From Cypionkella psychrotolerans (GTDB lineage Bacteria; Pseudomonadota; Alphaproteobacteria; Rhodobacterales; Rhodobacteraceae), in contig NZ_LGIC01000007.1 of NCBI RefSeq assembly GCF_001294535.1, positions 1 to 64,000 of the forward strand: a stretch of 64,000 nucleotides of DNA, read 5' to 3'. The notes beneath the pieces are model-generated. The model was not told where the DNA came from and searched no databases. It saw only the letters and a program-made list of their open reading frames with translations. A program made the position numbers and the translations under genes. Below are positions 3,190-14,003 of the stretch, one piece after another. How positions within the stretch are numbered: position 1 is the stretch's first letter; each line of letters begins with the position of its first letter.

Positions 3190-3810
3190 ATGGGCTATTC
3201 CAGTGACGTCGCATTCTCGGACGCAGTGAAGTCGGTGCAGAGCCGCAAAGGCTCGCGTCGGGCTTACGCGCAGCAGGAGGACGCAGGCAGTTGGCAAACC
3301 GAAATCACTGATGAATTGCGTGGCTTCATCGCCGAGCAGACCAGCGTGTTTCTGGCGACGGCGAGTGCTGACGGCCAGCCCTATATGCAGCATCGCGGCG
3401 GACCGCCGGGTTTTTTGCGGGTGATCAACGACAAGACCTTGGGCTTTGTCGATTTCAGCGGCAATCGCCAGTATATCAGCACGGGCAATCTGGCGGAAAA
3501 CCCCAAGGCTCAGCTATTCCTGATCGACTACACCCAGCGCCGCCGCATCAAGGTCTGGGGTACCGCGCAGGTCATTGAGGGCGATGCCGATCTGGTCGCA
3601 AGTCTGATGCCCGGAGGCTACAAAGCCCGCCCCGAGCAGGTGATCTTGTTTACGGTCACAGCTTGGGATGCCAACTGCCCGCAGCATATCCCGCAGCGCT
3701 TTGATGCAGGGGATGTGGCGCACATAGTGGCCGACCGCGATGCGAAGATCGAGGCACTGGAGGCAGAGCTTGCCGATCTTAGACTTCAGAATGCAGGACT
3801 ACCAGCGTAG
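3190..3810 (+). CDS. Pyridoxamine 5'-phosphate oxidase-family flavin-binding protein
   Basis: A 206-residue split-barrel protein. Diagnostic stretches are FLATASADGQPYMQHRGGPP (about residues 50-70), DFSGNRQYISTGNL and NPKAQLFLIDY, as in the FMN-binding proteins annotated as pyridoxamine 5'-phosphate oxidase-like. The C-terminus is a short helix rich in Glu and Leu (KIEALEAELADLRLQ), probably a coiled coil. ATG 3190 is preferred over a TTG at 3175 because AAAGG precedes it. The substrate is unknown; context suggests redox stress. Its 3' end overlaps the convergent nrsF gene by 12 bases. Confidence 0.83.
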   Translation: MGYSSDVAFSDAVKSVQSRKGSRRAYAQQEDAGSWQTEITDELRGFIAEQTSVFLATASADGQPYMQHRGGPPGFLRVINDKTLGFVDFSGNRQYISTGNLAENPKAQLFLIDYTQRRRIKVWGTAQVIEGDADLVASLMPGGYKARPEQVILFTVTAWDANCPQHIPQRFDAGDVAHIVADRDAKIEALEAELADLRLQNAGLPA

Positions 3811-4437
3811 CATCCGACGCCCTAGCGCTGCGCTGATCAGGGTGACGATCAGGATAGCCGCGCCATACCAAGTCACAAAGAACAGCGGATTATCGCGGGT
3901 GCAAAACAGCGAATAACCGGCGGTGACGCCACTGGCGGCGCTCAGCCCGACAAGGGCGCCGGACAAAGTTGGGGAGGTGGCGGCACCCTCTCGCACCAGT
4001 CGCAGCATCACCCCCACCGGAACGATCGACAGCAGCAAGATCGAGCCCAGACACTCATCCAGCGAAAAGGCACTAACTTCGGCAAAGCGGGCAGACGGTT
4101 CGCGCAGCACGAACGCCCCGATCCACAGCGCAAGGGCTGCCAGCAGGGGCACTGCATAGACCCAGAGGGTGGCCCCAGCCCGCGCCTCGGGTCGGATCAG
4201 GCGCAGCACCAGTAGGATGGACAAAGCACAGGTGATCAACGGCAGAACGGTTTTGAACGGGACAACGGGGTTAGACCATGCAAGCATCAAGCCATGACGG
4301 GTGCCCAGCACCGCCAGAAACAGCGCGACGGGGACAAGGATCGACAAAGCCATCACCATGCCAAGCCGTGCGGGGCGAAGGGCTGTCTGCACGGCTTCGG
4401 TGGATAGCCGGGCGATCAGATCATCGGTCTGCATCAT
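3799..4437 (-). CDS. nrsF: NrsF-type membrane anti-sigma factor (DUF1109)
   Basis: A 212-residue inner-membrane protein with about six hydrophobic segments (about residues 26-45, 63-81, 93-110, 128-146, 160-177 and 186-204), as in the DUF1109/NrsF anti-sigma factors. It should hold the SigF-like sigma factor at the membrane until stress releases it. Two cysteines, Cys129 and Cys179, are 50 residues apart; from memory, the regulatory cysteines of Caulobacter NrsF are Cys131 and Cys181, so the sensing pair seems conserved. Its ATG overlaps the sigma factor stop codon (ATGA), indicating translational coupling. Its C-terminal codons overlap the convergent flavin-binding gene. Confidence 0.88.
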   Translation of the reverse strand: MMQTDDLIARLSTEAVQTALRPARLGMVMALSILVPVALFLAVLGTRHGLMLAWSNPVVPFKTVLPLITCALSILLVLRLIRPEARAGATLWVYAVPLLAALALWIGAFVLREPSARFAEVSAFSLDECLGSILLLSIVPVGVMLRLVREGAATSPTLSGALVGLSAASGVTAGYSLFCTRDNPLFFVTWYGAAILIVTLISAALGRRMLRW

Positions 4438-4991
4438 GGCTGATCCCTGCGACCCAGTGCGGCCATTCGCTTCATCGCGCGGTGCAAGGTGACGCGCAGA
4501 TTGGCCGGGCTGATCTGCAAGCGCGCGCTGACCTCGGCTTGTGTCTCATCGCGCAGCGCCAAAGCCCGCACCACCTCTGCCGAGCGCGGGTCAAGCTGGC
4601 CCAGCAGGTGATCGACTTCTGCCCGGTCATCGCGGGCGGTCAGCGGGCTGGCTATATCCTCGGCGGGCAACAGCTCGCTGTAATCCTCAATCGGCAGATG
4701 CACCGCCACACCGCGCTTGCGATACGCGTCGATGATCTTGTAGCGGGTGATCGCATACAGCCATGGCCGCAGCGGATGCGCCGCGTCCCAAGTGTGGCGC
4801 TTCAGATGGATGCCAAGCAAAACGTCCTGCACAATATCCTCGTGTTGATCGGGGGGAAGGCTGCGGCTGCGCGCGCGCACAATTCCCCGGACGATGGGTG
4901 TGACGGCGTGCAGAAACCGGGCGTATGCTTGCCTGTCATCTGCGTTCGCCGCCTTCAGCAGTGTGGCCAAAGGATCTTCGGTCAGCTGCAT
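4434..4991 (-). CDS. sigF: ECF sigma factor, SigF (NrsF-controlled) type
   Basis: A 185-residue extracytoplasmic-function sigma factor. Region 2 is at about residues 25-95 (DQHEDIVQDVLLGIHLKRHT, then LRPWLYAITRYKIIDAYRKR) and region 4 at about 130-180 (DETQAEVSARLQISPANLRV, TLHRAMKRM). Pairing with a DUF1109 anti-sigma factor places it in the SigF group known from Caulobacter and from the chlorite/hypochlorite response of Azospira. It is divergent from msrB. A motif GTAACG-N16-CGAA in front of it suggests autoregulation. The CGAA element ends only 12 bases before the ATG, so the transcript probably has almost no leader. Confidence 0.9.
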   Translation of the reverse strand: MQLTEDPLATLLKAANADDRQAYARFLHAVTPIVRGIVRARSRSLPPDQHEDIVQDVLLGIHLKRHTWDAAHPLRPWLYAITRYKIIDAYRKRGVAVHLPIEDYSELLPAEDIASPLTARDDRAEVDHLLGQLDPRSAEVVRALALRDETQAEVSARLQISPANLRVTLHRAMKRMAALGRRDQP

Positions 4992-5003
4992 TCCCTTGGT
5001 CCC

Positions 5004-5029
5004 TTCGCGCTGAGCAGGCGGTTCGTTAC
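5004..5029 (-). promoter_or_regulatory. Predicted SigF-type promoter of sigF-nrsF
   Basis: On the minus strand GTAACG (5024-5029) is followed after exactly 16 bases by CGAA (5004-5007). The published Caulobacter SigF promoter is GTAACC-N16-CGAA (from memory), so there is one mismatch. The position directly upstream of sigF fits positive autoregulation. Confidence 0.7.
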
Positions 5030-5097
5030 AAGCGATAGGCGATTATTCTGAATTACTCCACCATCCCGCTTTGTTTGAACACCAAAGCGTGAGCCGC

Positions 5098-5122
5098 GTA
5101 ACAGCCTGGGATTTTGCGCGAA
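5098..5122 (+). promoter_or_regulatory. Predicted SigF-type promoter of msrB operon
   Basis: GTAACA (5098-5103) is followed after 15 bases by CGAA (5119-5122), pointing toward msrB at 5203. It has the same two elements as the promoter facing sigF but a spacer one base shorter. This puts the msrB-dipZ-msrA genes in the predicted SigF regulon, with an untranslated leader of about 70 bases. Confidence 0.6.
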
Positions 5123-5202
5123 TGGAATGCCCGAGAGCCAGATGATGATTCGGCAGGCGCGCGCAGTTGCGCAGTCAGCCCTTAACTTGGAGGAGAATAC
5201 CC

Positions 5203-5688
5203 ATGCAGTTATCGCGCCGTTCCGTTCTGACCAGCCTTATCCTAGGCACCGCCGCCGTCCGGTTCGGCTTTATCGGCAAGGCAGCGCGGGCGGGCGAAAG
5301 CTTTGCTGTCACCCATACCGATGCCGAATGGCGCGCCATGCTGACGCCCGCGCAATATGAGGTGCTGCGCCAGCAAGGCACCGAGCGCGCCTTTAGCAGC
5401 CCGCTGCTGGACGAACACCGCAAGGGCACCTTTTCCTGCGTGGGCTGCGATTTTCCGCTGTATTCTTCGGAAACCAAGTTTGACAGCGGCACCGGCTGGC
5501 CCAGCTTTTGGCAGCCACTGAAAGGCGCGGTTGGCACATCTTCTGATACAGCACTTTCTGAGGCACGCACCGAGGTGCATTGCAGCCGTTGCGGTGGTCA
5601 TCTGGGTCATGTGTTCAACGATGGCCCGCAACCGACTGGCCTGCGCTACTGCATGGACGGTGTCGCTATGACCTTCCACGCCGCCTGA
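5203..5688 (+). CDS. msrB: Exported peptide-methionine (R)-S-oxide reductase MsrB
   Basis: A 161-residue MsrB that reduces methionine-R-sulfoxide in proteins. The zinc-binding cysteines are Cys79/Cys82 (CVGC) and Cys127/Cys130 (CSRC). The GTGWPSFW box is at about residues 96-103. The catalytic cysteine is Cys150 in RYCMDG, where most MsrB proteins read RYCIN. The N-terminus MQLSRRSVLTSLILGTAA is a twin-arginine-type signal ending near ARA-GE, so the enzyme should act in the periplasm. ATG 5203 has a strong GGAGGAGA site upstream. It is the first gene of the predicted SigF-driven operon with the reductant transporter and msrA. Confidence 0.93.
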   Translation: MQLSRRSVLTSLILGTAAVRFGFIGKAARAGESFAVTHTDAEWRAMLTPAQYEVLRQQGTERAFSSPLLDEHRKGTFSCVGCDFPLYSSETKFDSGTGWPSFWQPLKGAVGTSSDTALSEARTEVHCSRCGGHLGHVFNDGPQPTGLRYCMDGVAMTFHAA

Positions 5689-5712
5689 CCCAGCAACCAG
5701 AAGGATCGCAAC

Positions 5713-7020
5713 ATGCTTCTGCTTCTCCTCGCGTATCTCGGCGGTATGCTGACCATCGCCAGCCCCTGCATCCTGCCCGTGTTGCCGTTTGTATTCGCAC
5801 GGGCCGGGCAGCCATTTCTGAAAAGCACCTTGCCGATGCTGGCAGGCATGGCTGCGACCTTCGCCGCTGTCGCCTCGCTCGCCGCGATTGGCGGTGATTG
5901 GGCAGTGACGGCGAACCAATATGGCCGCAGCGTGGCGCTGGTTGTGATGGCGGGCTTCGGGATGATCCTGCTGTTTCCGGCGATGGCTGACAAGGTGGCC
6001 CGGCCCGTGGTCGCCCTTGGCGCGCGGCTGTCCGACAGCGCGGATCGCCATCGCCGTGCTGGCGGATCAGTTGTCGCGGCTTCGCTGGTGCTGGGCACGG
6101 CCACCGGTCTGCTCTGGGCACCCTGCGCTGGACCAATGCTGGGGCTGATCCTGACTGGGGCGGCGCTGAACGGCGCCAACCTTGCCACCAGCCTGTTGCT
6201 GCTGGCCTATGCGTTGGGGGCGGCCACCTCGCTCGCCTTGGCGCTTTTGGTAGGCGGTCGGGTATTTCAGGCGATGAAACGCTCGCTTCTCGCCACAGAA
6301 TGGCTGCGCCGGGGCTTTGGCGTGGCGGTCATTCTCGCGGCGTTTGCGATTGGGCTGGGCGTCGATACCAAGTTTCTGGCGCAGGCATCTTATGCCAGCA
6401 CGGCCATTCTGGAACAGCGCCTGCTTGATAGTGTGTTGCAACCGCACGCTGCGCCCGCAACCGAAGACGAGTTGCTGCAAAATGCCCCCGCCTCTGCGAC
6501 CGAGGACTGGACCAAAAGCGATGTCACCCAGATCAAGGCGCAAAAGGTCAAACTGACCCTGCCGGTTGAGTCGACCACCCCGGACCTGAACGGCGCTGTG
6601 CAATGGCTGAACTCGGAACCTCTGAGCATGGCGCAACTGAAAGGCAAGGTCGTGCTGGTCAACTTCTGGACCTTCGGCTGCATCAACTGCCTGCACACCC
6701 TGCCTTATGTCAAAGAATGGGCGGCCAAATACGCCGATCAGGGCTTTGTGGTGATCGGCGTGCATTCGCCTGAATTCGCCTTCGAGAAAGACCGCGAGAA
6801 CGTCAAGAATGCTGTGGCCGATCTTGGCATCAGCTTTCCGGTGGCGCTCGACAATGATTTCGCGATCTGGCGGCAGTTCAACAACCGCTACTGGCCCGCG
6901 CAATACCTCATTGATGCCGATGGTCAGGTGCGGTTCCACCACTTTGGCGAAGGCAGCTACGATCAGTCTGAACAAGCGATCCGGCGGCTGATTGCCGAAC
7001 GTGACAAGGCGGCCCCGTAA
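5713..7020 (+). CDS. DipZ-like thiol-reductant transporter: CcdA/DsbD membrane domain fused to periplasmic thioredoxin domain
   Basis: A 435-residue fusion. Residues 1-240 are a CcdA/DsbD-type membrane domain with several transmembrane helices and the P-C motif in the first helix (TIASPCILPVLPF). From about residue 290 a thioredoxin-like domain carries the active site FGCINC (Cys323, Cys326) and a redoxin-type core (PVALDNDFAIWRQFNNRYWP). The architecture matches DipZ-type proteins, which carry electrons from cytoplasmic thioredoxin across the membrane. Lying 24 bases after msrB and 52 bases before msrA, it most likely re-reduces these two exported reductases. Confidence 0.88.
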   Translation: MLLLLLAYLGGMLTIASPCILPVLPFVFARAGQPFLKSTLPMLAGMAATFAAVASLAAIGGDWAVTANQYGRSVALVVMAGFGMILLFPAMADKVARPVVALGARLSDSADRHRRAGGSVVAASLVLGTATGLLWAPCAGPMLGLILTGAALNGANLATSLLLLAYALGAATSLALALLVGGRVFQAMKRSLLATEWLRRGFGVAVILAAFAIGLGVDTKFLAQASYASTAILEQRLLDSVLQPHAAPATEDELLQNAPASATEDWTKSDVTQIKAQKVKLTLPVESTTPDLNGAVQWLNSEPLSMAQLKGKVVLVNFWTFGCINCLHTLPYVKEWAAKYADQGFVVIGVHSPEFAFEKDRENVKNAVADLGISFPVALDNDFAIWRQFNNRYWPAQYLIDADGQVRFHHFGEGSYDQSEQAIRRLIAERDKAAP

Positions 7021-7072
7021 AAGCACCGCTGCAATCCAACCCATTTCCCTGCGATCTCTGAAAGGAAACACC

Positions 7073-7804
7073 ATGACCAAGTCCCTGACTGAACAACGGA
7101 AATCCACTCCGCGGCGTATGGTTCTGTGTACAGCGCTGGTACTGGCGGCGCTGATGGGCGGTGCGCTGATGCTGCCCGGCAATGCCAGCTTCGCAGGCGA
7201 AGGCATTGCGATCCCTGCTCCGAGTCTTGACGAGGCTGCCAATGCTGGCACCGAAACGGCGATCTTCGCTGGCGGCTGCTTTTGGGGCGTGCAGGGCGTG
7301 TTCCAGCATGTCGGTGGCGTGATCAGCGCCACCTCGGGCTATACTGGCGGCGAAGGCGCGAACCCCAGCTATGATATGGTCAGCACGGGCACCACCGGCC
7401 ATGCCGAGGCGGTGGAGATCGTCTATGATCCGTCAAAAGTCACCTACGGTCATCTGCTGCACATCTTCTTCTCGGTGGTGGCTGATCCGACCACACTGAA
7501 TTACCAAGGCCCGGATCATGGCACACAATACCGCTCGGCGATTTTCCCGACCAATGCGGCGCAATCCAAAATCGCCAAGGCCTATATCACCGAGCTTGGT
7601 GCGGCCAAGGTGTTTGGCGCTGCCATCGTGACGACGATTGAGCCGCAGGCAAAATTCTTCCCGGCTGAGGATTATCATCAGGACTTTCTGACCTTAAACC
7701 CGACCTATCCCTATATCGTCGTCAATGATTTGCCGAAAGTGGCCGATCTGAAACAGCTGTTCCCCGGCGATTATAAAACCAACCCCGTTTTGGTGATGAA
7801 ATAA
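7073..7804 (+). CDS. msrA: Exported peptide-methionine (S)-S-oxide reductase MsrA
   Basis: A 243-residue MsrA. The catalytic motif GGCFWG holds Cys69. Other family stretches are SGYTGGEGANPSYDMVSTG, GHAEAVEIVYDP, DHGTQYRSAIF and FFPAEDYHQDF. Residues 18-45 form a hydrophobic segment after basic residues (RRMVLCTALVLAALMGGALM), so the enzyme is exported or membrane-anchored, unlike cytoplasmic MsrA. ATG 7073 follows GAAAGGAAAC. With MsrB and the DipZ-like protein it makes a complete periplasmic repair pair for both sulfoxide diastereomers. Confidence 0.93.
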   Translation: MTKSLTEQRKSTPRRMVLCTALVLAALMGGALMLPGNASFAGEGIAIPAPSLDEAANAGTETAIFAGGCFWGVQGVFQHVGGVISATSGYTGGEGANPSYDMVSTGTTGHAEAVEIVYDPSKVTYGHLLHIFFSVVADPTTLNYQGPDHGTQYRSAIFPTNAAQSKIAKAYITELGAAKVFGAAIVTTIEPQAKFFPAEDYHQDFLTLNPTYPYIVVNDLPKVADLKQLFPGDYKTNPVLVMK

Positions 7805-7839
7805 GAATTTAATCTCTCTGGGTTTAAAAGATTTAACCT

Positions 7840-7867
7840 CACGGCATCAGGCGTAAGAGATGCCGTG
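7840..7867 (+). terminator. Hairpin after msrA
   Basis: CACGGCATC (7840-7848) and GATGCCGTG (7859-7867) form a perfect 9-bp stem with a 10-base loop, 36 bases after the msrA stop. No strong T-run follows, so it may be a weak terminator or an operator for the LysR gene downstream. Confidence 0.5.
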
Positions 7868-7918
7868 GGCTATTTGACAACATAACTCCGCCACACAATC
7901 AGGTAGCCCGTAAATCCC

Positions 7919-8869
7919 ATGGAAATGCACCAGATCAAATACTTTCTGGCGGTGACGCGGACGCTGAACTTTACCCGAGCGGCGGATCAATGCAACGTCA
8001 CCCAGCCGTCGCTGACCCGCGCGATCCAGAAACTAGAGGATGAATTCGGCGGCATCTTGTTCAACCGTGAACGCGCGCTGACCCATCTGACCGAGTTGGG
8101 CCGCATGGTGCTGCCGCATCTGGAACAGACCTATGAAGCTGCCGAAGCCGCGACCTCGCTTGCCAGCAGCATTGGTCGGGCCGAGGTTGCTCCGCTGGTA
8201 ATCGGGGTGGCGCATGGCCTAAATTTGCCCGTGCTGGATGAGATATTGGCCGCTTTGGCCAGCACATTGCCCGCGCTTGCGATTGATCTGCGCAGCGGCA
8301 CGTCTGAACAGTTGCTCGATACCGCGCTGAAAGGCGGCATTGATCTGCTGATCATCGCCCAGCCAGAGCAAGCGCCGGATCGGCTAGAGACTTGGCCGCT
8401 GTATGTGCAACGCTACAAAATGGCGATCTGCGCGGGGCATCGGCTTGCCAATGGCCCGCCGCTTTGCATGGCAGAAGTGGCGGCTGAGGCTTGGATCGAC
8501 GGCGGCGACGATGGCACGACTTTGTGGCGCAGCGCGGCCACCGCGATGGGTCTGGCTCCCAGCTTTCGCCACCGCGTTGAAAGCCGCAGCCAAGCCCTGC
8601 GTCTGGTGGCGCTTGGGCTTGGCCATGCGATCATGCCTGCGGGCACATCCGCTTGCGGCACAGCAGCGGTCAGCTTAAGTGATTGCGAGTTATATCAAAA
8701 CATTGTTCTGGCTGCCGTGGCAGGTCGCCGTAGAGGCCGTGCCGCCGATGCGTTCATGCGCGCGGCGCGGGCGCGTGATTGGCAGGAAAGTGCGTCGGGA
8801 ACAGCCGATCAGGCGGGTCTGGTCAGGCTCGACAATGCGCAAAGCACCTCAGCTGGTTCTGCCCGGTGA
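7919..8869 (+). CDS. LysR-family transcriptional regulator
   Basis: A 316-residue LysR regulator. The helix-turn-helix is at about residues 5-65 (LNFTRAADQCNVTQPSLTRA, FNRERALTHLTELG), followed by an effector domain from about residue 90. Several cysteines are present (DQC, AICAGHR, SACGTA, SDCEL), but I cannot identify a specific OxyR-type pair. It sits inside the redox island between msrA and a convergent peroxiredoxin-like gene, whose 3' end it overlaps by 61 bases, so a role as local redox sensor is likely but inferred. ATG 7919 matches the usual family N-terminus MEMHQIKYFLAV. Confidence 0.88.
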   Translation: MEMHQIKYFLAVTRTLNFTRAADQCNVTQPSLTRAIQKLEDEFGGILFNRERALTHLTELGRMVLPHLEQTYEAAEAATSLASSIGRAEVAPLVIGVAHGLNLPVLDEILAALASTLPALAIDLRSGTSEQLLDTALKGGIDLLIIAQPEQAPDRLETWPLYVQRYKMAICAGHRLANGPPLCMAEVAAEAWIDGGDDGTTLWRSAATAMGLAPSFRHRVESRSQALRLVALGLGHAIMPAGTSACGTAAVSLSDCELYQNIVLAAVAGRRRGRAADAFMRAARARDWQESASGTADQAGLVRLDNAQSTSAGSAR

Positions 8870-9462
8870 TGAAAGTCAGGATCGACAAAAGTAAAATGCA
8901 CCTGCCGCGCGCGATCTAGCAGGAAAGTTGCGGGCGCGGGCAGCAAACCATTGGCTGTGCCGTAAGCCTCGGCCAGATCAAAGCCGCCGTCGCGAAACTG
9001 CTGCAACACCACGGGCCCCACCGGAAACGCCAGACCATAGCGTAGGGCCACACCCAGATCGGGATCGCACAGCACCACAGCGCCGTCACCCGCAATCTGC
9101 GCCAAACCCGCCAACCGCCCGCCGGTTTCCGGTGTTACGATGATCAACCGCCCACCCGCCGCAATCAACGCATCGCGATTCTCCGCCCAAGCGCCGATTT
9201 CTTCCTCACAATACGGGCACCAGCTGCCGCGATTGAAACTTAACACCACGGGTCCGTCGGCCAGCAGATCACTCAACCTGCGCAAGCGACCACTGGCATC
9301 GGGCAGTGCAAAGTCAGGCGCAACCGCCCCCACACGCGGCGCGCCCGCCATGGCATCAGACGCCCGCAGCCGCTCAATCAGCGCATCATAACTTTCCAGC
9401 CAAGTGCCGGGAAGGCTTCGGCAGGCAGCAAGGCGCGACGCAAGGGGTACAGGGTTTTTCAT
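8809..9462 (-). CDS. Peroxiredoxin-like (AhpC/TSA-superfamily) protein
   Basis: A 217-residue thioredoxin-fold protein of the AhpC/TSA superfamily. Residues 45-90 read VAPDFALPDASGRLRRLSD and VVLSFNRGSWCPYC, giving a CxxC pair at Cys82/Cys85 in place of the single peroxidatic cysteine of classical peroxiredoxins. It has no signal peptide, so it should be cytoplasmic. The start at 9460-9462 (MKNPVPLASR) is preferred to an upstream ATG at 9573 because the longer frame has no family similarity. It diverges from the methionine-rich protein gene and converges on the LysR gene. Confidence 0.83.
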   Translation of the reverse strand: MKNPVPLASRLAACRSLPGTWLESYDALIERLRASDAMAGAPRVGAVAPDFALPDASGRLRRLSDLLADGPVVLSFNRGSWCPYCEEEIGAWAENRDALIAAGGRLIIVTPETGGRLAGLAQIAGDGAVVLCDPDLGVALRYGLAFPVGPVVLQQFRDGGFDLAEAYGTANGLLPAPATFLLDRARQVHFTFVDPDFHHRAEPAEVLCALSSLTRPA

Positions 9463-9703
9463 CCCGCCATCATTGTGCAATTCCCGCGCTATATAAAGAG
9501 CCTTGCTCGCATGGGTTTCATGCACGCAAAGCATGGACAGCGCCGCTTGATAGCCTACGGGCATTGAAAGCATAGGTAAGTGGCATTTTCTATTTTACAC
9601 GCGCTGGGGCACCCTAATTTCAATCGGTCCCTGACGGATCGGTTCTAACCTGTCGGGCCTGCTGCCAATACCGGCGATGCCCGCACCAAATTGGAGACTC
9701 CCG

Positions 9704-10015
9704 ATGAACCGTTTTCTGATCGCCCTGGCACTCTCGACCGCATTCACCGCTCCGGCATTTGCCGGCAGCATGGCCAAGGATATGGCGTGCAGCGCCTTCT
9801 CGGCAATGGATTCTGATGGCATGATGGCGACGATGAAAGACGCCAAAATGGCAGGCGACGCGATGGCTTCCGGTGACGCAATGGCATCCGGCGATGCAAT
9901 GGCCTCGGGTGATGCGATGGCGATGAGCCCCGAAGATGAGATGGCCGCTGTGGTCAAGACCTGCAAAGAACATCCCGATATGATGCTTATGGATGCGATG
10001 CATCCCAAGATGTGA
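9704..10015 (+). CDS. Methionine-rich periplasmic protein (MrpX-like)
   Basis: A 103-residue exported protein with a clear signal peptide (residues 1-20, ending APAFA-GS). The mature part of 83 residues contains 18 methionines. Residues 51-74 are four tandem hexapeptides of the type GDAMAS. Flanking the repeat are Cys29 (DMACSAF) and Cys87 (VVKTCKEHPD), which could form one disulfide, a pattern reminiscent of small HdeA-like periplasmic proteins (weak inference). Placed before a YedZ/YedY pair and near SigF/NrsF, it corresponds to MrpX of Azospira, a sacrificial methionine-rich scavenger of hypochlorite regenerated by the YedY1 methionine sulfoxide reductase. Sequence similarity to MrpX was not tested. 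Confidence 0.8.
   Translation: MNRFLIALALSTAFTAPAFAGSMAKDMACSAFSAMDSDGMMATMKDAKMAGDAMASGDAMASGDAMASGDAMAMSPEDEMAAVVKTCKEHPDMMLMDAMHPKM
9854..9925 (+). repeat. Four tandem 18-bp repeats inside the methionine-rich gene
   Basis: Units begin at 9854, 9872, 9890 and 9908 and each encodes GDAMA plus Ser (Met in the last). Synonymous third positions differ between units (GGC GAC GCG, GGT GAC GCA, GGC GAT GCA, GGT GAT GCG), so the amino-acid repeat is being kept while the DNA diverges. Confidence 0.9.
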
Positions 10016-10022
10016 TCTGCTG

Positions 10023-10049
10023 CGGGCACTGGGATACTCCCGGTGCCCG
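10023..10049 (+). terminator. Strong hairpin between the methionine-rich gene and the cytochrome gene
   Basis: Arms 10023-10033 and 10039-10049 pair over 11 bp (one T-G wobble) around a 5-base loop, starting 8 bases after the stop codon. No T-run follows. It could stabilise the upstream message or attenuate readthrough, giving more methionine-rich protein than membrane enzyme. Confidence 0.55.
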
Positions 10050-10092
10050 ACCCCACTCTCTCCCGCACCCTCTCACCCGATCAGGACAGCAG

Positions 10093-10944
10093 ATGAGCAT
10101 CACCGAACCGATGACCATGCCGACGCAAACTGCAGCCAAAGGCGGCGATGTTGTGGATCGGCACCGCTTGTCCACCCGGCTGTGGCACTGGACCAATGCC
10201 ATAACCATCGTGATCATGCTGATGAGCGGGCTGATGATCTTCAACGCGCATCCCCGACTGTATTGGGGCGCTTATGGTGCCAACCCGGACTATGCTTGGC
10301 TTCAGATCGGCGCGACCGAGGCCAATACCGGCTTTGTGCGCGTGGGCAGCGTGACCGCCGACACCACCGGTGTTCTGGGCCGCTGGACTGACAGTGACGG
10401 CCAAGTGCGCAACCGCGCCTTCCCGTCTTGGGCGACGCTGCCGCAAAGCTACAATCTGGCATTGGCTCGGCGTTGGCATCTGACCTTCGCTTGGGTGTTT
10501 GCCGTTGGCCTCGCCGCCTATCTGATCCGCAGTCTGCTCAACCGCCATCTGCAACGCGACCTGCTGCCAACAGCCGAGGAAATCCGCCCGTCGCAAATCT
10601 GGAGCGACATCAAGCACCACGCCAAGTTGCAGTTCCCGACGGGTGAGGCCGCGCAACGCTATAATATCTTGCAGAAATTCGCATATCTGTCGGTGTTGAT
10701 CGCCCTTATCCCCGGCATGATCCTGACCGGGTTCACCATGTCTCCCGGCCTGAACGCCTCTTTGCCATGGCTGCTCGATCTGTTCGGCGGCCGGCAATCG
10801 GCCCGATCTTTGCACTTTATCTTCGCGATGGGGATCATGGCGTTCATTGTGGTCCATTTGTTGATGGTTGTCCTCGCTGGACCAATCAACGAGGTGCGCT
10901 CGATGATCACAGGCCGCTACCGCTTGCCGAAGGAGAAAAACTGA
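10093..10944 (+). CDS. Membrane cytochrome b (b561-type), YedZ1-like electron donor
   Basis: A 283-residue membrane protein of the prokaryotic cytochrome b561 type. Four hydrophobic helices carry histidines suitable for haem b (RLWHWTNAITIVI, RRWHLTFAWVF, RSLHFIFAMGI, FIVVHLLMVVL). A soluble insertion separates helices 1 and 2. Coupled by a one-base TGATG overlap to the molybdoenzyme gene, it should transfer electrons from the quinone pool to that enzyme, the job of YedZ1/MsrQ in related systems. It is larger than MsrQ and of a different haem-protein type. The start MSITEP follows the hairpin after the methionine-rich gene. Confidence 0.85.
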   Translation: MSITEPMTMPTQTAAKGGDVVDRHRLSTRLWHWTNAITIVIMLMSGLMIFNAHPRLYWGAYGANPDYAWLQIGATEANTGFVRVGSVTADTTGVLGRWTDSDGQVRNRAFPSWATLPQSYNLALARRWHLTFAWVFAVGLAAYLIRSLLNRHLQRDLLPTAEEIRPSQIWSDIKHHAKLQFPTGEAAQRYNILQKFAYLSVLIALIPGMILTGFTMSPGLNASLPWLLDLFGGRQSARSLHFIFAMGIMAFIVVHLLMVVLAGPINEVRSMITGRYRLPKEKN

Positions 10945-11696
10945 TGGCACTTTTGACCCGCAGATCCGTGCTGACCGGACTTGGCTTTTCCACCATCATC
11001 GGCACCACGGCTGGCCTTGTGTTAAGCCCGAGCTTCCGCGACCTAGCGCTTGGCAGCGGTGAGAAACTGGCCTACCAGACCCACCGCCTGATCGGTCGTA
11101 ACGCTTTAGCGCCAGAGTTTACCGAAGCCGATATGTCGCCAGACTTCCGCACCAACGGTAACACCATGCCCAAGTCATCAGACTACCAGCGCCATATGGA
11201 AACCGATTTCGCCAACTGGCAGTTGCAGGTCGATGGCCTTGTCAGCACCCCAAAAGCCTTCTCACTGGCGGCACTGAAAGCCATGCCCGCCCGCACCCAG
11301 ATCACCCGTCACGACTGTGTCGAGGGGTGGAGCGCGATTGGCAAATGGACTGGAGTGCCGCTCAGCGCGTTGCTGTCTCAGGTCACCCTGCTGCCCTCTG
11401 CGCGCTATCTGGTGCTACATTGCGCCGATGATTTCAGCGGCGACGCATACTACGAAAGCATTGATCTTGTTGACGCTTTCCATCCGCAAACTATCCTCGC
11501 CCATACCATGAACGATCAACCGCTGTCCGTCGGCCACGGCGCGCCGCTGCGGCTGCGGGTCGAGCGGCAACTGGGCTACAAGCAGGCGAAATATATTATG
11601 CGGATAGAGGCGACTGCGACCCTCGCTGCGACGGGTCTTGGCAAAGGCGGCTTCTGGGAAGACCAGATCGGCTATGACTGGTATGCAGGTATATAG
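10944..11696 (+). CDS. Tat-exported molybdopterin oxidoreductase, YedY/MsrP-like
   Basis: A 250-residue protein of the sulfite-oxidase-type molybdopterin fold. The N-terminus TRRSVLTGLGFSTIIG is a twin-arginine signal, as expected for a folded cofactor enzyme sent to the periplasm. The molybdenum-ligand cysteine is Cys125 in HDCVEGWSAIGKW. Other family stretches are LVLHCADDFSGDAYYESID and GAPLRLRVERQLGYKQAKYI. Together with the cytochrome b and the methionine-rich protein it forms the YedY1-YedZ1-MrpX set that repairs oxidised periplasmic methionine. The TGATG junction shows translational coupling with the cytochrome gene. Confidence 0.88.
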   Translation: MALLTRRSVLTGLGFSTIIGTTAGLVLSPSFRDLALGSGEKLAYQTHRLIGRNALAPEFTEADMSPDFRTNGNTMPKSSDYQRHMETDFANWQLQVDGLVSTPKAFSLAALKAMPARTQITRHDCVEGWSAIGKWTGVPLSALLSQVTLLPSARYLVLHCADDFSGDAYYESIDLVDAFHPQTILAHTMNDQPLSVGHGAPLRLRVERQLGYKQAKYIMRIEATATLAATGLGKGGFWEDQIGYDWYAGI

Positions 11697-12150: not shown

Positions 12151-13806
12151 TCAGTAAGTTTTCTCGTGTGTGTCTTTCCCATCGTGCCAGTCTATATCGC
12201 GCACGACTTTATCGTCAGCGATAAGGTTGTCGAATGCGTTTTGGACGTAGTGGCGACAGCTATGTAGCGTGAGACCCGCGCCCTCAGCGCCGAGGCTTCT
12301 ATCGATAACCTCCCGCATTTGCCGCTCTAGCTTCTTGCCGTAGCTTCCCGAAGCGTCGCCCAAATCGGGGAACAAGGAAGGGGGAGCCCTTGGTGCGGAG
12401 GGCCTCGACATAGTCCATGAAACCTAACTCGATCAGGTGGCTGTGGATTGGCACCTTGCGCTGCGAGGGCAGGTTCTTGATGCGCCGCAGATCATTGCCA
12501 TCAATGTCGAAGCAAAGGGTGCACTCCACCTTAATGATATCCTTTGGCATCAGACCAGCAATTTCTTCGCGCCGCGCGCCTGTATAGGCGGCAATCAGAG
12601 GCACCAATAGAGGCCGTTGCGGATGATCCGGCCGCCGGGCTCCCATTGCCGGGCCTCGGACTTCTAGCCCTGCCAAACAGGGCTTTGGAAAAGGGTCTTT
12701 AGCTGTTCGGCGGTGAACGCCTGACGTTTGTCGCGGTCGCGCACATTCTCTTTGCGGCGCAGCTTGCCGAGTTTCAGCGTTTGATCAATCGCAATCCCTT
12801 CGTCATCCGCCCAGGTCACGATCTGGGTCAGATGTTCAAGATGGCGGTTCACCGTGGCGACACTCAGGTTCAATTTTTCCGCTGGTAACTGCTCGGCCCG
12901 CGCCACGATTTCCTCACGGCTGGCCCCCGCATCTCTTTGGCTTTTGTCCCAGATTTTCGGCAGCTTGTGAAGATCCGTGCGAAAAGATGTGACATGGCTT
13001 TGCCGGATCCTGCGGAGGTCAGCAATCCCGGTCAAGGTAGAGAACAGCGTCACAAAGTTTTCATACTCGCGCAGAGTTTTTTCTTCGATTCCTACTGCCC
13101 GCTTAAGCGCGTTCATTCCCTGAACGATCACGGTGAGGCTCGGATCAAGGATTTTGGGATCTGATGCTCCTTGATTTGGGGGATGGTCTGGTTCATGAGT
13201 TTCTTGGGCTTCAATGGGTAGCTGATTAGGAGCTTCCGGCTCCCGCGGGATCGCTTCATCCCAGGCTAAGTGCTTGCCACGGATGTAGAGGTCCATCGCC
13301 TCAATCGTTCCTTGGGCTGAAACCGTTTCGCGCCCGGTCAACGCCTTGAGTTCCCGTAGAATGATCCGTCGGCGCGTATCGCTGGTCAGGTCGCTCCGCA
13401 AAAGATCGACATCGCGGGCGAAGAGGCTGTTACCGTCGGGGGTTGGCGCATGGACGTCATTGTTGGCGATATGTGCCCAAGCGGCCCGCATCGCCTCGTC
13501 ATGGCGGCGATCATCAGCCGGATCGCAACTGTCGACACGGCTGAACATGGCAATTGTGGCGCGCTCGCGCTTCGCAACCTCCGCAAGCCAGCTACGTGCC
13601 TCGGTTTCTGTGATCTGATTTCTGACGGCGCATTCCATAGCGATATCACTCTCCGCGCTAAGCTTCCGAGATAAGATAACCGCAATGCGCGGGTCGGTGG
13701 TGCGCAAAGAGAGCTTGATTTCGACGATTCTTGTGGATTGTCGCCTTATGCGACGGCACCAATGGAACACTTGTCCGCGTCGGAAGAGGTGGGGTTGGCC
13801 GTTCAT
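12151..13806 (-). pseudogene. Tyrosine site-specific integrase, decayed
   Basis: A phage-type integrase broken into three frames. Residues 1-380 (13806 to 12664) contain the SAM-like core-binding domain and end at an in-frame TAG (12664-12666) after SPVWQG. The catalytic domain resumes in another frame with the first arginine box (PLIAAYTGARREEIAGL). It shifts again near 12400 and ends with LTLHSCRHYVQNAF, which contains the H-x2-R motif, and THEKTY, whose Tyr is followed directly by the stop. One nonsense change and two frameshifts make an active protein unlikely. It starts about 120 bases from the tRNA-Asn 3' end, the usual place for an integrase at its attachment site. Confidence 0.85.
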
Positions 13807-13875
13807 CTAATATCCGTTCCTAGTTGGACGGACAGATAAATCAGCTGTGCAGGATGGAATATCCTTATGCCACAT

Positions 13876-13902
13876 AGACGAAGCCAAATTTTGGCTTTGT
13901 CT
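13876..13902. repeat. Inverted repeat between integrase and tRNA-Asn
   Basis: Two 13-base arms (13876-13888 and 13890-13902) around a single base, with one mismatch; core AAGCCAAATTTTGGCTT. It may be an integrase arm site or a terminator. Confidence 0.6.
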
Positions 13903-13905
13903 ATT

Positions 13906-13928
13906 ATTTCAACGGCTTGCGTTGAAAT
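13906..13928. repeat. Inverted repeat abutting the tRNA-Asn 3' end
   Basis: ATTTCAAC (13906-13913) and GTTGAAAT (13921-13928) form a perfect 8-bp stem with a 7-base loop. It touches the CCA end of tRNA-Asn and may end its transcript or belong to the attachment site. Confidence 0.6.
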
Positions 13929-14003
13929 TGGCTCCGGCGGTAGGGATCGAACCTACGACCAATTGATTAACAGTCAACTGCTCTACCGCTGAGCTACGCC
14001 GGA
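13929..14003 (-). tRNA. tRNA-Asn (anticodon GTT)
   Basis: On the minus strand the gene starts TCCGGCGTAGCTCAGCGGTA and ends CGCCGGA plus G and an encoded CCA. The acceptor stem pairs over 7 bp (TCCGGCG with CGCCGGA). The anticodon loop CTGTTAA gives GTT, and the T-arm reads GGTTCGATCC. It is the likely attachment site for the decayed integrase next to it. Confidence 0.96.

Follow-up and report, generated by a model that had tools for sequence, protein, structure and literature searches.

Organization of the locus

The stretch of Cypionkella psychrotolerans DNA analysed here (contig NZ_LGIC01000007.1 of assembly GCF_001294535.1, positions 1–64 000; these 64 000 nucleotides are referred to as the window) contains a block of ten genes at positions 3799–11696, in which the genes for an extracytoplasmic function (ECF) sigma factor and its predicted anti-sigma factor lie beside two sets of genes that appear to serve the repair of methionine sulfoxide (MetSO). 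From left to right, nrsF–sigF are encoded on the minus strand and msrB–dipZ–msrA–lysR on the plus strand. The next gene, for a redoxin, lies on the minus strand and is followed by plus-strand genes for a methionine-rich (Met-rich) protein, a cytochrome b561 and a PF00174 enzyme. A preliminary description, made from the sequence alone, had named nine gene types within 8 kb; all of them are present with open reading frames, and the families agree with that description. The features are as follows.

3799–4437 (−): nrsF, DUF1109-type anti-sigma factor (Pfam NrsF, 137.6 bits, cut-off 26.8)
4434–4991 (−): sigF, ECF sigma factor, ECF16 type by its partner and promoter (sigma-70 r2 and r4_2 above cut-off)
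5004–5029 (−): ECF16 promoter motif TGTAAC-N17-CGAA 5′ of sigF (motif search against the ECF16 consensus)
5080–5122 (+): extended ECF16 promoter 5′ of msrB, a CACCAANNCGTGA element followed by CGTAAC-N16-CGAA
5203–5688 (+): msrB (160.8 bits; twin-arginine translocation (Tat)-like signal; RYC motif)
5713–7020 (+): dipZ-like gene, CcdA-like membrane domain and TlpA-like domain (matches to DipZ and CcdA in the PDB)
7073–7804 (+): msrA (193.1 bits; export signal; Cys in GCFWG)
7840–7867 (+): hairpin between msrA and lysR (found by eye; no T tract)
7919–8869 (+): lysR, candidate second-tier regulator (Pfam LysR_substrate and HTH_1)
8809–9573 (−): prx, AhpC/TSA-type redoxin with CPYC (Pfam AhpC-TSA, 62.6 bits)
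9622–9643 (no strand): conserved dyad or repeat AATCGGTCC-N5-GGATCGGT in the gap that separates prx from the Met-rich gene; putative operator (alignment of four genomes)
9704–10015 (+): Met-rich exported protein, HdeA/HdeB-related by profile comparison (DAMASG repeat insert between Cys29 and Cys87)
10093–10944 (+): cytochrome b561-type membrane partner (Pfam PF01292, 87.1 bits)
10944–11696 (+): YedY1-type molybdopterin enzyme, MsrP-like (PF00174, 119.2 bits; TRRSVL signal)

The export signals of MsrB, MsrA, the Met-rich protein and the YedY-like enzyme were all judged by eye, and no signal peptide was seen by eye in the redoxin. The genes are tightly packed: sigF and nrsF overlap by four bases, the ends of the redoxin gene and lysR by 61 bases, and the start of the PF00174 gene overlaps the stop codon of the cytochrome gene (TGATG). 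The proposed sigF–nrsF pair is borne out as an ECF sigma factor next to a DUF1109 anti-sigma factor of the ECF16 kind; the nrsF product scores 72 bits against an NCBIfam equivalog cut-off of 300. The catalytic cysteines of the block proteins are in place.

The thiol branch

The DipZ-like protein matches DipZ (PDB entry 2hyx, E = 2.2e-48) over residues 287–429 and CcdA (PDB entry 5vkv, E = 4.6e-05) over residues 3–217, while DsbD_TM is below the Pfam cut-off. Cys19 and Cys138 are located in the membrane part and Cys323-x-x-Cys326 in the thioredoxin part. With this membrane Cys pair and a CxxC motif that is predicted to be periplasmic, the protein fits a DipZ/CcdA thiol relay. The earlier assignment as a DipZ-like transporter holds in this respect, with the difference that the C-terminal part of the compared DipZ proteins of 577–597 amino acids is absent. 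Mature MsrA has a single Cys and MsrB has two CxxC pairs and one further Cys, and therefore both would need an external thiol donor.

The quinol branch

A tree of PF00174 proteins (145 sequences over 250 columns, with the root placed on the SoxC-like group; at least two genes, L111/L122 and L121/L253, were entered twice) places the window enzyme in a 99-member YedY1 clade (support 0.943), which is sister to 22 MsrP proteins (support 1.0) and apart from 23 SoxC-like proteins. The labels were confirmed on L095 (MsrP, 427.6 bits) and L226 (SoxC, 628.9 bits), the remaining labels resting on the tree, and the sample includes the rhizobial SigF-linked YedY proteins but not those of Azospira and Brucella. 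Proteins from Gemmobacter, Halovulum and Marinosulfonomonas are found near the window enzyme. Against the MsrP family model it reaches 91.6 bits (cut-off 207). The closest solved structure is 1xdq (44.1 bits), which we take to be Escherichia coli YedY and which was titled 'Bacterial Sulfite Oxidase' by its depositors, followed by a sulfite dehydrogenase (28.1 bits). A reading as a sulfite oxidase is disfavoured by the tree together with the family scores. By its sequence the enzyme is of the YedY1 type, distinct from MsrP and SoxC, in agreement with the YedY1-like assignment of the preliminary description; the grouping with sulfite-oxidising or unrelated proteins that would have refuted that description is not seen.

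The window cytochrome is 49–51% identical to its counterpart in loci L103, L107, L109 and L110, of which L103 and L110 are SigF-linked. In two other loci (L118, 7776–10499 (−), and L119, 6204–8342 (−)) a cytochrome b561 forms the C-terminal end of frames of 907 and 712 amino acids, in which only cytochrome-type families were found; these are either fusions or read-through in frame calling.

An alignment search with YedY yielded at least 592 loci, of which the best 80 were examined. In 17 of these best 80, sigF, nrsF and the cytochrome lie within 10 kb, as detected with local hidden Markov models; these were built from a small number of sequences and overlooked several sigF genes (L169, L175 and L193). 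A Met-rich frame precedes the cytochrome in 22 of the best 80, most of them MXKDX-like by eye; those of L179 and L182 went undetected in this search. The MXKDX proteins of L110, L139 and L201 score 54–65 bits in NCBIfam (cut-off 41). On rhizobial plasmids the order is nrsF–sigF and then MXKDX–cytochrome–YedY (Rhizobium T136 and Neorhizobium NCHU2750).

The Met-rich protein resembles HdeA and HdeB

The mature part of the Met-rich protein has 18 Met in 83 residues, mostly spaced six apart within acidic repeats, and the protein has no family match above cut-off in Pfam or NCBIfam. It had been regarded as an MrpX/MXKDX-type protein, but profile comparison points to HdeA/HdeB instead. With hhalign, five Met-rich proteins compared with five HdeA-like proteins gave 98.2% over 90 columns that span the mature chain with both cysteines. 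The comparison of the Met-rich with the MXKDX proteins gave 74.4% over 19 columns of the signal peptide only, and that of MXKDX with HdeA gave 14.4%, likewise in the signal peptide only. Membership of the window protein in the MXKDX family, against whose model (TIGR02953) it has no match, is not supported.

Further comparisons are in agreement with this kinship. A Pfam scan at a loose limit, covering five rhodobacterial Met-rich proteins, listed HdeA (PF06411) for four of them, in three as the best match: Gemmobacter L133 (E = 0.0011, 19.6 bits, the best relative), L058 (E = 0.27) and L122 (E = 0.46). For the window protein HdeA (9.7 bits, E = 1.4) came second to a chance match at 0.072; the L112 protein lists no Pfam match at the loose limit and the copy in genome G297 none at a stricter one. 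The window protein and all tested relatives are below the Pfam HdeA cut-off of 22 bits. The L133 protein also reaches 26.9 bits against TIGR02953 (cut-off 41), which we would attribute to its repeat. The mature window protein aligned to one HdeA-family protein of its own genome (G000) with a score of 88, both proteins being Met-rich, and none of 2000 shuffled sequences (mean 35.8, standard deviation 6.7) reached this score. In searches of the PDB, a five-row profile listed HdeB second (E = 1.1) after an unrelated dehydrogenase (E = 0.76), and an eight-row profile that includes the three G000 HdeA genes had two HdeB sequences as its only matches (E = 0.067 and 0.51). AlphaFold gave two low-confidence models (predicted local distance difference test scores of 58.5 and 60.3), which were compared using Foldseek; all matches (7/7 and 8/8) are HdeA or HdeB, with best E values of 0.31 and 0.21.

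From these comparisons we conclude that the Met-rich protein is likely to share descent with HdeA/HdeB and to carry a Met-rich repeat between the two cysteines, at scores below the family cut-offs. It shares with HdeA and HdeB the two-cysteine frame in addition to the profile kinship and, as the low-confidence models suggest, perhaps a helical fold, and differs from them in the repeat insert, in its score below the Pfam cut-off and in its linkage to Msr genes. An HdeA/B-like Met-rich protein precedes cytochrome–YedY in six loci (the window, L058, L224, L111, L112 and L133). The five-row profile recovered four of these six in 295 genomes of the family, together with one weak match (G006, E = 4.9e-4) to a protein that is not Met-rich.

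HdeA-family genes above cut-off are present in four of 149 genomes, G000 included. The three of G000 lie on contigs C31, C20 and C76 (L208, L213 and L214), and two of their products are Met-rich and end like the window protein (PDM.LMD.MH). An HdeA-family protein of 243 amino acids in L211 (1450–2181 (+)) has a long Gly/Thr/Ala-rich insert between its two cysteine segments, as if the HdeA fold tolerates inserts there. Eight aligned MXKDX proteins (L110 6821–7066 (+), L139, L142 and others) carry a two-cysteine segment, DCxxKAxMExDxMKKxxMxxxC, which has no profile kinship to the HdeA-like proteins.

Conservation and distribution

The ten genes occur in identical order in three of the 15 genomes of the genus, namely G000, G247 (L058) and G297 (L224). 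The dipZ gene is likewise present in three of 15, and in three of the nine genomes that are at least 90% complete and at most 5% contaminated. The genes of the left flank of the window match G247 and not G297; those of the right flank have no match in the stretches of G247 or G297, where just 3.7 kb of G247 is available. The ratio of nonsynonymous to synonymous substitution rates (dN/dS) is 0.07–0.30 for each of the ten genes in both comparisons made, and by this measure all ten appear to be under purifying selection. Because the order is kept in three genomes with differing surroundings and dN/dS is low, the grouping is more than chance. The joining of the quinol and thiol branches, as originally proposed, is confirmed as a side-by-side arrangement in this conserved unit.

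Within the 295 family genomes sampled, NrsF is found above cut-off in 41. Besides the window there are 42 such places, of which 40 were examined for the ten proteins (G216:C224 and G162:C180 were left out). L058 holds all ten genes with the order kept, and L057 of genome G077 has msrB–msrA without dipZ facing sigF–nrsF. In the other 38, several of them short, no MsrA, MsrB, cytochrome or YedY match was found in the stretch examined; L051 and L055 among them show a 33–34% match to part of DipZ. The neighbourhood search that had been suggested returned the same genes in order within the genus and, among these 40 NrsF loci, a split version in one other genome. In G077 the lysR–redoxin–Met-rich–cytochrome–YedY half is located on the same contig, about 45–49 kb from the sigF half. 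The quinol half is also present in G154, a genome without an NrsF match, and the thiol half occurs as msrB–dipZ alone in Rhizobium (L104). DipZ at E ≤ 1e-40 is found in two of the 295 genomes, both of the host genus; a YedY match at E ≤ 0.001 is found in 255, and one of at least 120 bits in just 13. Outside the block, G000 carries two additional genes each for MsrB and MsrA; PF00174 has no other match above cut-off in this genome.

Both branches also meet elsewhere. In Kaistia dalseonensis (L201) MsrA and MsrB, both apparently exported, lie beside MXKDX–cytochrome–YedY; a Nitrospirae metagenome-assembled genome (L197) has MsrA, an incomplete MsrB frame, a ResA-like thioredoxin, the cytochrome and YedY on one strand; and in Rhodoblastus (L165) an apparently exported MsrB precedes the Met-rich gene by about 2–3 kb. 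This suggests independent unions of the branches. An enrichment of msrA/msrB near YedY1 was not pressed: such genes lie within 10 kb in six of 80 loci, the incomplete L197 frame included, against about two expected from six such genes per 5 Mb as in G000, and the numbers are too small.

Promoters and regulation

According to the available text of PMC8315932, the ECF16 consensus is (T/C)GTAAC-N17-CGAA, and Msr genes are found repeatedly in ECF16 regulons. The window contains only two GTAAC-N15..18-CGAA sites, which are divergent and lie between sigF and msrB, with spacers of N17 on the sigF side and N16 on the msrB side. A divergent GTAAC-N16/17-CGAA pair is present between sigF and msrB in 4/4 genomes (G000, G247, G297 and G077), and a similar pair lies between sigF and MXKDX–cytochrome–YedY in a number of rhizobial loci, L110 and L176 among them.

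The msrB promoters have an element upstream in common. The extended element CACCAANNCGTGANNNNNGTAAC has five exact matches in the whole genomes of G000, G247, G297 and G077 (about 17.8 Mb), four of them 5′ of msrB and the fifth about 250 bases 5′ of the lysR that stands apart in G077. Because the detached lysR carries the extended promoter of msrB, these promoter sequences suggest a cascade from SigF to LysR: within the genus lysR would belong to the SigF operon, in G077 it would have a SigF promoter of its own, and SigF would reach the quinol branch via LysR. Before the Met-rich gene, a dyad of the form AATCGGTCC-N5/6-GGAYCGGT is present in the same four genomes.

Several observations weigh against a SigF-controlled cassette. 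Two or more motif matches are reached in 13 of 100 shuffles of the window, and the number of sites alone is not significant; the bare motif with spacers of 14–16 occurs in 33 places in G000 (188 for the reversed control). The bare motif is not rare, and therefore it is place, divergence and conservation that carry weight. The extended pattern was derived from four of the five sites that it matched, and with up to three mismatches it has 53 matches in the four genomes against 105 for the reversed control; therefore its information is only that no further exact copies exist. The ECF16 consensus is absent before the Met-rich operon in all four genomes. A degenerate CTAACC..CCAAT in G000 and G247 was considered as a direct promoter and rejected, being kept in neither G297 nor G077. 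Gemmobacter L133 has sigF–nrsF directly adjoining an HdeA-like Met-rich operon without a consensus site, and therefore such loci can occur without the motif; no ECF16 site was found in L151, L129 or L123 either. That LysR acts at the dyad is conjectured from position. The hairpin at 7840–7867 separates msrA from lysR; its stem is also present in G247 and seems to be kept in G297 with different bases, and no intrinsic terminator was found after msrA. Finally, the block is rare, and its halves lie apart in G077. The claim of SigF control is accordingly narrowed to the thiol branch, which has an ECF16 promoter, whereas the quinol operon is perhaps reached via LysR.

Proposed mechanism and alternatives

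It appears reasonably probable that the block is a cassette for periplasmic methionine redox balance that is controlled by SigF (ECF16) and NrsF, with LysR as a second tier. NrsF would sense an oxidant and free SigF, which would read the paired divergent promoters to give more SigF and NrsF as well as msrB–dipZ–msrA, probably reading on into lysR. Electrons of cytoplasmic thioredoxin would cross via DipZ to MsrB (for the R-sulfoxide) and MsrA (for the S-sulfoxide). LysR would act at the dyad between prx and the Met-rich gene and activate both the redoxin gene and the operon for the Met-rich protein, cytochrome b and YedY1, and quinol electrons would reach the molybdenum enzyme. The HdeA/B-like protein would take up oxidant on its methionines and could be reset by either route. 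If so, one envelope-stress sigma factor would pool thioredoxin and quinol electrons, with methionine repair continuing if one source fails, and methionine-rich decoys would have evolved repeatedly, each time on another scaffold. The preliminary description had seen the point of two routes in the repair of both sulfoxide diastereomers. The two branches do adjoin, but the second is not needed for a missing diastereomer: MsrP-type enzymes alone reduce both (available text of PMC9404787), and therefore the gain would be a second electron source.

The halves could instead be two independent stress modules that happen to lie side by side, SigF controlling only msrB–dipZ–msrA, while LysR, the redoxin, the Met-rich protein, the cytochrome and YedY answer another signal. 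The separate occurrence of the halves in G077, G154 and Rhizobium L104, the missing consensus before the Met-rich operon, and the integrase pieces and tRNA-Asn beside the block (see below), which fit hitch-hiking, all speak for this. The promoter of the detached G077 lysR and the persistence of the union in three genomes with different surroundings, with similar unions in Kaistia and the Nitrospirae genome, speak against it, and we regard it as unlikely, though to be taken seriously.

HdeA and HdeB are acid-activated periplasmic chaperones, as their NCBIfam names also indicate. By its kinship, the Met-rich protein might be not mainly a decoy but a chaperone that is switched by methionine oxidation, the two Msr routes resetting the switch. 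The repair of the E. coli chaperone Spy by MsrPQ offers a parallel, but oxidation of its methionines abolishes rather than switches on its activity (available text of PMC12503329), and in the window protein the sequence has diverged and the insert looks like a simple repeat. Such a switch is unlikely. Its combination with the SigF/LysR cassette is likewise unlikely: SigF would govern the thioredoxin-fed MsrB and MsrA and, via LysR, YedY1 with its quinol supply, and both routes would reset a chaperone of HdeA/B fold in which the Met-rich insert makes oxidation, not acid, the switch. With the HdeA/B scaffold, it can be tested directly whether methionine redox state and chaperoning in the periplasm are linked.

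Periplasmic methionine-rich proteins often bind Cu(I). The block might thus serve against stress by copper or another metal, with the Met-rich protein as a Cu(I) binder and the reductases mending the damage that the metal causes. This would accord with the available accounts of Caulobacter SigF, which responds to chromium and cadmium (PMC3511200) and is mentioned in a copper-stress study (PMC8224329), and of E. coli MsrPQ, which is linked to copper stress (PMC9302797), but it is very unlikely given that Pfam and NCBIfam scans found no copper-handling family among the ten proteins, that the Met residues are mostly six apart in acidic repeats and that the partners are reductases, not exporters.

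Comparison with known systems

The SigF/NrsF–MrpX–YedY1–YedZ1 system of Azospira reportedly places a Met-rich protein, a cytochrome and a YedY-type enzyme under an ECF16 sigma factor. Canonical MsrP, with MsrQ, resembles the window pair in combining an exported PF00174 enzyme with a membrane cytochrome; the window enzyme differs in its separate clade, its score below the MsrP cut-off and its PF01292 partner, MsrQ presumably belonging to another family. In Brucella, BcrS–AbcS exerts ECF16 control over MXKDX–cytochrome–YedY (bcrXQP) from divergent ECF16 promoters (PMC8315932). The Azospira system was compared through the available text of that paper, and both loci by description. The window shares with them the ECF16 sigma factor, DUF1109 anti-sigma factor, Met-rich exported protein, cytochrome and MsrP/YedY-type enzyme. 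Unlike in these systems, the window promoter faces msrB–dipZ–msrA, the Met-rich protein is HdeA/B-like rather than MXKDX, and LysR and a redoxin are added.

EcfF, the ECF16 factor of Bradyrhizobium japonicum, controls the MetSO reductases bll5855, blr7043 and blr7044 as well as bll1027–1026, a DsbD-like protein and an anchored thioredoxin that are proposed as the electron donor (PMC3420878). SigF would likewise govern MetSO reductases and a DsbD-like donor. The EcfF–OsrA regulon differs in comprising seven transcription units across the genome, and neither a YedY-type enzyme nor a Met-rich protein appears by name in its Table 3, which does list several hypothetical proteins. The msrAB operon of Haemophilus influenzae, which includes CcdA and a thioredoxin, similarly couples MsrA and MsrB activities in the periplasm to a CcdA-type relay, but MsrAB is fused there and the available text of PMC9404787 mentions no molybdenum enzyme or Met-rich protein in the operon. 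Msr systems near chlorite dismutase are described by Barnum and Coates (PMC9751292). No report of the combined locus, or of HdeA with methionine-rich proteins or sulfoxide, was found by title and start of abstract among the papers listed, most subscription papers being outside reach. The suggestion that the combined locus is undescribed is thus retained for the compact union, while ECF16 control of Msr genes with a DsbD-like donor and of MXKDX–cytochrome–YedY is published. As far as our searches reach, the parts are known and the compact union, the SigF–LysR arrangement and the HdeA/B scaffold are new.

Neighbouring genes

Just to the right of the block, integrase-like frames lie in pieces at window positions 12151–14003 (−). 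The first piece contains DUF6538 and a phage integrase SAM domain below cut-off, and two other pieces have no Pfam match. A tRNA-Asn gene (13929–14003) adjoins these pieces; its end repeat was considered as an attachment site and rejected, there being no second copy within the window. At the other side, a transposase gene (HTH_Tnp_1) is located at 277–588 (−), near the contig end, which coincides with window base 1.

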